Assembly: GCF_002959855.1 (NCBI RefSeq)
Contig: NZ_PPDB01000003.1
Location: 372,001 to 436,000, forward strand
Origin: Veillonella denticariosi JCM 15641
GTDB taxonomy: Bacteria > Bacillota > Negativicutes > Veillonellales > Veillonellaceae
Length of the DNA stretch: 64,000 bases
Direction of reading: 5' to 3'
Made by a program: the position numbers and the translations under genes. The notes under the pieces were generated by a model that saw only the letters and a program-made list of their open reading frames with translations, was not told the DNA's origin and made no database searches. Below, piece by piece: positions 38,803-40,511 of this stretch (position 1 is the stretch's first letter; each line of letters begins with the position of its first letter).

Positions 38803-38825
38803 CGCCCTAGTAAATTACTAGGGCG
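38803..38825 (-). terminator. Terminator of the ATPase/small-ORF operon
   Basis: CGCCCTAGTA-att-TACTAGGGCG, perfect 10-bp stem followed by TTTTG on the minus strand; it contains the stop codon of the 48-aa ORF. Confidence 0.85.
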
Positions 38826-38964
38826 CTCTATGTAGTATAGTGTCTAAGTTTTCATCAGTAGCAATATCTAGTTCCTTAACACCAGATTCGCGAATAGGAC
38901 TTTTCATATGCCATTCTTCATAGGTGTCGAAGAATTTTTTTTGAATCCAATTGTAAATGCTCAC
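38818..38964 (-). CDS. Small protein (48 aa), GTG start, coupled to the ATPase
   Basis: Reads MSIYNWIQKKFFDTYEEWHM and continues 28 residues to LHRAP, with a GTG start that overlaps the ATPase stop in GTGA (4-bp overlap). AGGTGA lies 10 bp upstream. The stop is within the operon terminator. The peptide is soluble and mixed-charge with no known motif. Translational coupling, rather than sequence recognition, supports it as a gene. It may be a partner of the ATPase. Confidence 0.55.
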   Translation of the reverse strand: MSIYNWIQKKFFDTYEEWHMKSPIRESGVKELDIATDENLDTILHRAP

Positions 38965-40178
38965 AAGGATTCACCTAACAACCAGTCCAGCACATTATAT
39001 TGCTGAATGCCGTTATAATTATTAGTCTTATAAATTTCATCCATCGTAAGTAAGTATTTAGGATATTGATCTCTAATGGCTTCTAGTGGTGCTAATTCTC
39101 GCTCTCGCGTATTCGGATCTAATACGGTTTCCGATACTTGATAGTACTCTAATATGCCGCCAGGTTTTTGTGCAACAAAATCAACTTCACCCTTTGCTAA
39201 TTGTCCGACATAAACATTATAACCTCGGCGACGCAATTCAAGATAAACGATATTTTCTAAAATATGCCCCGTATCACGATCGACTTCCGGTAAAAGAAAC
39301 TGTTTAAAAGCTGTATCCACTACATAATACTTAGGACGCAGCCGCAATAATTCCTTGCCACGTACGTCAAAACGCTCCACTTCATATAATAACAAACTGT
39401 CCTCTAGCCCTCTAAGATAACGTTCCACAGTTTTATTATCCACCTTACGTCCGGCACTCGTTAAAGAGTTCGCAATCTTTGTAGGATTAATCAGGCTCCC
39501 TATATTGGCCAAAATATATCTCACAATACTTTCAAGTAATTTAATATCTGCAATTTTTAATCGATCAACGACATCTTTTAAAATAACAGTATTAAATAAA
39601 CCTTGTAAATAATCCTGCCGTCCCTGCCAATCATCAGACATATGCAAAAGCCCCGGAAATGAACCTTCGCTTACATATTTTTTATATAATGCTATTCGTG
39701 AAAGCCCACTTTCACTATAAGCATCAACATATTCCTTATAAGATAGAGGCATCATTTCAATTTGTACATAACGCCCCGTAAGTAATGTAGCCATATCAGA
39801 AGACATAAAATACGCATTGGAACCAGTAATATATATATCTATATTATCTTGTACGAAGAAATTATCCACTACACGTTCAAACTGCGACACATGCTGAATC
39901 TCATCAAGAAAAATATACATTCTTGTATCAGGAATAATACGTTCATTAATGTACTCGTATAAAGCCCGATAATCTCGTAAATTATCATATTCAATCAACT
40001 CAAAATTAATATCAATAATCTGTTCTGCCGTTACACCGTCAGATAATAACTCATCTTGAAATAGTTTAAATAATGTAGATTTACCACAACGTCGTATACC
40101 TGAAACAACCTTAATAATCGGTCTATCCCGGTGACGTCGTAAAAAATCTAAATAGTGTGGACGTGATATTAAAGACAT
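38961..40178 (-). CDS. AAA-family ATPase with DUF4143 domain
   Basis: Protein of 405 aa. N-terminal P-loop VVSGIRRCGKSTLFKLFQDEL near residue 25-45, Walker B MYIFLDEIQHV near 95, sensor DIYITGSNAYF near 133. The C-terminal DUF4143 domain (about residues 215-390) includes a nuclease-like end: GYNVYVGQLAKGEVDFVAQKPGG, resembling an E-V-D-F-V restriction endonuclease fold, and YYQVSETVL. Such proteins are common accessory genes of unknown role, sometimes suspected in defence or DNA metabolism. Its promoter region carries three palindromes. Lower GC than the surrounding genes; a truncated relative is at 23657-23796. Confidence 0.9.
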   Translation of the reverse strand: MSLISRPHYLDFLRRHRDRPIIKVVSGIRRCGKSTLFKLFQDELLSDGVTAEQIIDINFELIEYDNLRDYRALYEYINERIIPDTRMYIFLDEIQHVSQFERVVDNFFVQDNIDIYITGSNAYFMSSDMATLLTGRYVQIEMMPLSYKEYVDAYSESGLSRIALYKKYVSEGSFPGLLHMSDDWQGRQDYLQGLFNTVILKDVVDRLKIADIKLLESIVRYILANIGSLINPTKIANSLTSAGRKVDNKTVERYLRGLEDSLLLYEVERFDVRGKELLRLRPKYYVVDTAFKQFLLPEVDRDTGHILENIVYLELRRRGYNVYVGQLAKGEVDFVAQKPGGILEYYQVSETVLDPNTRERELAPLEAIRDQYPKYLLTMDEIYKTNNYNGIQQYNVLDWLLGESL

Positions 40179-40198
40179 CTTACACCTCCTTGTAAAAA

Positions 40199-40297
40199 TA
40201 GGTTTTAAAACCTAATATTGTATATAGTATATCACAAATTAGGTTTTAAGACCTAATTTATGCATTATATTATTAACTTTAGGTTTTAAAACTTAAA
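40199..40297. promoter_or_regulatory. Three palindromes at about 40-bp spacing upstream of the ATPase gene
   Basis: TAGGTTTTAAAACCTA (40199-40214, perfect), TTAGGTTTTAAGACCTAA (40239-40256, one mismatch pair) and TTAGGTTTTAAAACTTAA (40279-40296, one mismatch pair). Centres are 41 and about 40 bp apart, close to four helical turns, so bound dimers would lie on the same face. The first is 20 bp upstream of the ATG. Confidence 0.7.
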
Positions 40298-40434: not shown

Positions 40435-40511
40435 TGGTGCGCCTAACCGGAATCGAACCAGTGACACGCAGTTTAGGAAACTGCTGCTCTATCCTACTGA
40501 GCTATAGACGC
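40435..40511 (-). tRNA. tRNA-Arg (anticodon CCT)
   Basis: The 77-nt minus-strand RNA folds as a cloverleaf: acceptor GCGTCTA/TAGGCGC, D-arm AGCTCAGTAGGATAGAGC, anticodon stem GCAGT/ACTGC with loop TTCCTAA, T-arm GGTTCGATTCC. The 3' CCA is encoded (40435-40437). Anticodon CCU reads AGG. Confidence 0.95.

Follow-up and report, generated by a model that had tools for sequence, protein, structure and literature searches.

This study concerns three 18-bp palindromes that precede the gene for an AAA_14/DUF4143 ATPase in a 64,000-nucleotide stretch of the genome of Veillonella denticariosi JCM 15641 (contig NZ_PPDB01000003.1), referred to below as the window. Their centres lie at 40206.5, 40247.5 and 40287.5, at steps of 41 and 40 bp. 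Repeated sites at a fixed pitch were found before genes of this family more often than expected by chance, and the comparison of sequences presented here indicates that the Veillonella array exemplifies a wider rule in the AAA_14/DUF4143 family. The palindromes very probably constitute an operator array that is read by the ATPase itself and that may keep its expression low. The initial annotation of the window, made from the letters of the DNA, had described three related palindromes before the DUF4143 gene with centres 41 and 40 bp apart, and the coordinates were confirmed.

When the best palindromic pair upstream of the window gene (score 48, z 6.9) was compared with 200 dinucleotide shuffles, none of the shuffles scored as high. 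The pattern TTAGGTTTTAAAACCTAA, allowing up to three mismatches, had three forward matches in the 1.98-Mb genome, all of which were the array copies, and the reversed pattern used as a control gave two matches. The nearest named relatives were V. atypica and V. tobetsuensis (89 and 88% protein identity). The initial annotation had staked its proposal on the presence of palindromes before close homologues, and three Veillonella orthologues (L004, L005 and L018) each had palindromes too, three in number and at roughly the pitch of the window array. The search near other DUF4143 genes that it had suggested found palindromes at 40-bp pitch before many genes of the same class.

DUF4143 genes were gathered in three sets and divided by their Walker A motifs, among which GxRRxGKS defines class I, the class of the window gene, a GARQVGKTW-like motif class III and KWCGKT class V. 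The first set was taken from the taxonomic class and phylum (about 130 places chosen from the listing, plus further loci); the 214 loci with a recognised gene, less 15 partial ones, left 199, which were collapsed at 85% identity to 156. The region tested ran from −200 to +30, and the best palindromic pair of each gene was evaluated against 200 dinucleotide shuffles. The second set comprised 92 new non-redundant genes from viral contigs and further genomes, after exclusion of 21 reading frames that were partial or had short upstream sequence. The third added 61 class I genes, so that the pooled class I contained 174 non-redundant genes.

In the first set, 30 of the 70 class I genes reached p ≤ 0.01 for the best palindromic pair, and the best spacing was 38–42 bp in 29/70 class I genes versus 3/86 genes of all other classes together. 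The gene-averaged spacing spectrum of class I (71 genes after one reassignment) showed a sharp peak at 40 bp, with a combined z of 20.2 for palindromes and 13.5 for direct identity. The corresponding peaks were at 33 and 32 bp in class III (43 genes; combined z 14.7 and 12.0, direct identity) and at 23 and 46 bp in class V, all four genes of which carried 23-bp arrays; class IV, with five genes too small a set, gave a hint of 34 bp. The second set again had 40 bp as the top spacing of class I (42 genes; best spacing 38–42 bp in 11) and 33 and 66 bp as those of class III (30 genes; best spacing 31–34 bp in 12), and 40 bp was found once more in the third set, where the best spacing was 38–42 bp in 32/61 genes. 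Strong pairs, defined by a score of at least 36 and a spacing of 39–41 bp, were present in 59/174 pooled class I genes versus 1–6/174 at nine decoy spacings. Direct repeats at 32–33 bp (14-mers matching at 12 or more positions) were present in 38/82 class III and unclassified genes versus 0–1/82 at seven decoy spacings. No peak at 40 or 33 bp was observed in the controls, consisting of 29 PF04326 genes and 43 other genes of the window; their best spacing fell at 38–42 bp in 1/29 and 5/43 cases, none of them significant. Of the 58 class I genes with clear arrays, 42 had two copies, 14 had three and 2 had four. The arrays of class III consisted of two to six direct repeats at 32–33 bp, six being found at L350, and those of class V (L111, L113, L103 and L217) of direct repeats at 23 bp, in two to five copies. 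Strict 32–33-bp direct repeats were seen before L350, L337, L100 and L108, among other class III genes.

The pitch is specific to the clade. The initial annotation had taken the spacing as close to four helical turns, placing the three palindromes on the same face of the DNA, and this part was not supported. At 10.5 bp per turn, pitches of 40, 33 and 23 bp correspond to 3.8, 3.1 and 2.2 turns, so that neighbouring sites would be rotated by about −70, +50 and +70 degrees, respectively. Exact same-face phasing would need DNA overtwisted to 10 bp per turn, and pitches of 33 and 23 bp occur in the other subfamilies. These rotations fit a short helical assembly better than strict same-face binding.

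We then compared the spelling of the sites. Different repeats stood at the same place before distant DUF4143 genes, as illustrated by a TTATAATTACGTTTATAA-like palindrome present three times in Ligilactobacillus and by palindromes of the TTTGGAATGAAATCCAA type before a second DUF4143 gene of V. atypica, which lies 20 kb from the first. These two cases suggest that the spacing is kept while the spelling varies. Across the half-sites of the 58 class I genes, T at base 1 (77%) and at base 8 (90%) was common to most, and bases 4 and 5 were nearly free (0.14 and 0.05 bits). Within a gene, bases 4 and 5 were conserved (1.54 and 1.78 bits), values that are inflated since the copies were chosen for likeness. 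Paralogues of one genome were paired using 63 loci for which a genome was listed, copies above 85% identity having been collapsed beforehand; in all 14 pairs, from seven genomes, the operators differed in bases 3–6. By these comparisons, the spelling is private to each gene, which is not expected of a single host regulator.

The half-sites of the 58 non-redundant class I genes were also compared with the columns of the protein alignment after removal of the effect of overall protein distance. For operator bases 3–6, columns 249 (K249; score 11.0) and 247 (D247; 10.9) ranked first and second of 313 scorable columns, both with a family-wise p of 0.001 and above the 95% null maximum (8.5). Since these columns had first emerged in an earlier test with 37 genes, 31 genes added later served as a hold-out, in which column 247 ranked first (family-wise p 0.023) and column 249 third (p 0.30) of 312. 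D247 together with K249 was accompanied by G at base 5 in 16/16 genes versus 3/42 of the others. This residue pair is present in the products of both the window gene and the second V. atypica gene. Further combinations at 247 and 249 went with their own spellings, namely A+K with (G/A)AC (4/4 genes), A+E with (C/A)AG (6/6) and D/N+R with (G/A)CA (4/4). Among pairs of proteins at least 50% identical, which are not independent of one another, bases 4–5 differed in 37/146 with the same residues at 247 and 249 versus 208/234 with different ones. In 29 disjoint close pairs, base 5 differed in 1/13 with the same residues versus 10/16 with different residues (one-sided p 0.003), and K249 ranked second of 405 columns for this base; base 6 gave p 0.058, and the remaining bases showed no link. 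For operator bases 1, 2, 8 and 9, neither 247 nor 249 was among the 15 best columns. Operator specificity, as far as alignments can tell, tracks the predicted DNA-reading residues of the gene's own product.

These two residues are among the first of the predicted recognition helix (RKVDNKTVERYL in the window protein), part of a winged helix predicted to separate the AAA domain from the C-terminal domain. The Pfam MCM_C winged helix was matched at E ≤ 1 by 11 of 44 class I proteins (best E 2.2e-4) and FUR by 5/44 (best E 6e-4); the match of the window protein to MCM_C was weak (E 0.08, residues 236–268). The window protein passed the Pfam gathering scores of both AAA_14 (PF13173; 115.9 bits, cut-off 27) and DUF4143 (PF13635; 75.6 bits, cut-off 28.1), and its gene was the sole DUF4143 match of its genome. 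It matched the PADLOC-DB PDC-S01 model PDLC04787 with E 2.4e-158, residues 2–403 aligning with positions 9–409 of the 412 in the profile; PDC-S01 models were also matched by the single proteins scanned from classes II, III and V, one each. The PD-(D/E)XK nuclease motif consists of a catalytic D and (D/E)xK. In the alignment of 44 class I proteins this signature was absent from the region corresponding to residues 333–349 of the window protein: D333 and Q347 were invariant, Gln replacing the Glu of the motif, and no conserved Lys stood two residues after Q347. Class III keeps an invariant E387 and K389. Since the Asp is kept and the Glu and Lys are not, the nuclease of class I may be dead. Searches of PDB sequences found no match with the window protein, one weak P-loop match with a class I profile (E 0.5) and, with class III, regions of the midasin P-loop (E 3e-4) and otherwise weak matches. 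By sequence search, the family appears to have no clear relative among solved structures.

Several observations weigh against the proposal that arrays of fixed pitch are read by the ATPases themselves. About two thirds of the class I genes (115/174) had no array at the threshold used, and no pitch stood out in the spacing spectra of the 30 class II genes. Taken alone, the 27 genes of the earlier sets placed columns 249 and 247 only third and sixth (family-wise p 0.59 and 0.93). In the disjoint pairs, column 393 in the C-terminal part (Q393 in the window protein) stood slightly above 249 for base 5, and bases 4 and 5 taken jointly gave p 0.067. A sliding-window Mantel test with 33 genes found no window that beat the null and did not single out the winged helix. 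It was replaced by the per-column test, in which no single column exceeded the null maximum with 37 genes. As a block, the winged-helix columns scored 0.94 versus 0 ± 0.27 with 37 genes and were weaker with 58 (0.52 versus 0.03 ± 0.23, z 2.1). As the null maximum was exceeded by columns 247 and 249 in this larger set, in which the block was weaker, the signal sits in two columns. Promoters likewise gave no help. A simple scan placed 28/48 of them over operator copies, versus 32 expected, and the scan of the window found no promoter-like site inside the array on the strand of the gene. Overlap with promoters was not enriched, which does not point to repression by occlusion, and it is the position of the array before the gene that suggests repression of that gene.

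The lack of enrichment at promoters would also suit an array that serves mainly as a platform for defence or maintenance, for example as a sensor, a loading site or a centromere-like iteron array, with a secondary effect on transcription. Arrays of two to six copies at even spacing, together with an ATPase that would bind DNA, are reminiscent of iterons and of partition sites. Besides, the genes look mobile: among 48 class I loci, in which neighbours were called by similarity to one annotated representative per family, 9 had a terminase-like upstream neighbour and 7 a recombinase-like one. This explanation nevertheless seems unlikely, since the array stands close before the start of its own gene and hardly elsewhere. 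Around 23 class I loci, no further copies were found in 28,164 bp of genes or in 4,646 bp of downstream sequence, and a single one was found in 8,943 bp of more distal upstream sequence. In addition, the window gene is located on a 600-kb contig beside ordinary genes.

The same confinement of the array is compatible with control of the ATPase gene by a separate host regulator, and separate dimeric repressors typically act on palindromic operators. Such a regulator is improbable, given that its operators would have to differ between the paralogues of one genome in 14/14 pairs and to covary with residues of the ATPase. Moreover, among the 12 most widespread neighbour families of the 48 class I loci, the commonest matched phage packaging genes (9 loci) and a recombinase (7 loci), and none of the three representatives annotated was a regulator, a scope that leaves room for rarer ones. 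A literature search on DUF4143, PDC-S01 and COG1373, which we take to cover the AAA_14/DUF4143 family, found no mechanism or substrate for the family; it found no report of upstream arrays and, judged by titles, nothing on the regulation of the family. This literature is in line with the statement of the initial annotation that no regulator of the family is known, and a separate one seems unneeded. The intergenic position of the palindromes might recall hairpins of a leader RNA acting in attenuation or mRNA stability, a reading with almost nothing to recommend it because sister subfamilies have direct repeats of equally strict pitch, and neither a 40-bp pitch nor covariation with a predicted DNA-recognition helix is expected of hairpins. 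Chance or AT-rich low complexity, despite the AT-rich region and near-matches at two or three mismatches elsewhere in the window, is hardly credible given the results with dinucleotide shuffles, with decoy spacings and control genes, and with the second and third gene sets.

The ATPase most likely binds the array at its own promoter, as suggested by the differing operators of paralogues and by the covariation of the operator with residues 247 and 249. The initial annotation had envisaged cooperative binding by either a dimeric repressor or the ATPase product; the covariation favours the latter, and the conserved pitch suggests that neighbouring sites cooperate. The following mechanism is probable. 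The winged helix (approximately residues 225–272) would read each 18-bp palindrome as a dimer, with one dimer per palindrome in class I, and residues 247 and 249 would help to set half-site bases 4–5, base 5 above all. Dimers on adjacent sites would be held at the fixed 40-bp pitch, probably through contacts between their AAA+ domains, and the resulting short, ordered nucleoprotein array over the promoter would hold the expression of the gene low. ATP binding or hydrolysis, or a signal from a phage or plasmid, might dissolve the array, and expression would rise. The role of the ATPase in defence is putative. As a more general picture, which we offer tentatively, each ATPase of the family may be a self-reading switch; on its private promoter array it would form a miniature filament, with a pitch fixed by clade at 40, 33 or 23 bp, which ATP turnover or a phage signal would dissolve. 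Its specificity may drift by a simple recognition-helix code, which would let paralogues coexist without cross-talk.

The surroundings of the gene were also examined. The 48-aa open reading frame that the initial annotation had regarded as a partner of the ATPase turned out to be the truncated start of a neighbouring gene. Strong matches to it, with open frames of 277–289 codons and 82–100% identity, were found in 9 of 14 Veillonella genomes searched, and in genome G009 the last bases of the ATPase gene are shared with it through an ATGA. Seven of the nine class I loci with a terminase-like neighbour also had a portal-like downstream neighbour. The terminase-adjacent genes in phage contigs were moron-like (L263, L277, L279, L280, L288, L289, L293, L294 and L299). 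These neighbours, together with the recombinase-like ones, fit the gene as mobile cargo, and COG1373 is listed in a survey of genes shared horizontally among gut bacteria (PMC10782964). The possibility that the array marks the ends of a transposon or integron was considered and rejected because the downstream sequence of the 23 loci (55–400 bp each, many below 100 bp) contained no copies. A BLAST block common to L004, L005 and the window starts about 1–6 bp outside the distal palindrome, which may only mean that the sequence outside is not conserved. The positions of the features are given in Table 1.

Table 1 Features of the window at and around the palindromic array.
Feature	Position	Strand	Sequence or basis
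Operator copy 1, gene-proximal	40198..40215	none	ATAGGTTTTAAAACCTAA
Operator copy 2	40239..40256	none	TTAGGTTTTAAGACCTAA
Operator copy 3, distal	40279..40296	none	TTAGGTTTTAAAACTTAA
Gene of the 405-aa class I ATPase (AAA_14 + DUF4143; PDC-S01 in PADLOC), with Walker A GIRRCGKS	38961..40178	-	Profile matches
Winged helix-turn-helix (predicted; residues 225-272 as delimited by the authors)	39363..39506	-	MCM_C and FUR matches
Codons 247-249 (Asp-Asn-Lys), start of predicted recognition helix	39432..39440	-	Covariation of residues 247 and 249 with bases 3-6 of the operator
48-aa open reading frame, truncated start of neighbouring gene	38818..38964	-	Comparison with Veillonella genomes
tRNA-Arg (CCT), upstream of the array, context only	40435..40511	-	

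The arrays provide a handle on these proteins, as the DNA target of each would be readable from its own upstream sequence with the aid of a partial recognition code. The strict pitch constrains how the ATPase may assemble, and binding, assembly and release become directly assayable. The arrays can also help to place gene starts and to define subfamilies. Two genomes, G099 and G351, contained 19 and 26 DUF4143 matches, respectively, and form a natural test bed for operator specificities that do not cross.

Iteron-binding initiators place winged helices on several evenly spaced repeats, and Orc1/Cdc6 adds an AAA+ domain in the same chain. Unlike in those systems, the array described here is promoter-proximal to the ATPase gene, its spelling is private to the gene, and its pitch is specific to the subfamily (40, 33 or 23 bp). 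PDC-S01 is a single-gene phage-defence candidate in PADLOC-DB, and DUF4143/PDC-S01 ATPases are counted among the commonest defence candidates (PMC12988326, PMC13356809). The accessible parts of the PDC-S01 descriptions do not mention a promoter array, autoregulation or a DNA-recognition code. According to a study of Thermus thermophilus, TT_P0211, a gene annotated with AAA_14 and DUF4143, was up 6.6-fold with a plasmid in an Argonaute-bearing strain, and no such rise was seen in the strain without Argonaute (PMC4406477). RptR is a separate repressor of restriction-modification systems (PMC12255303). The likeness lies in a repressor acting on defence genes; in the present case, it is apparently the putative defence ATPase that reads its operators.
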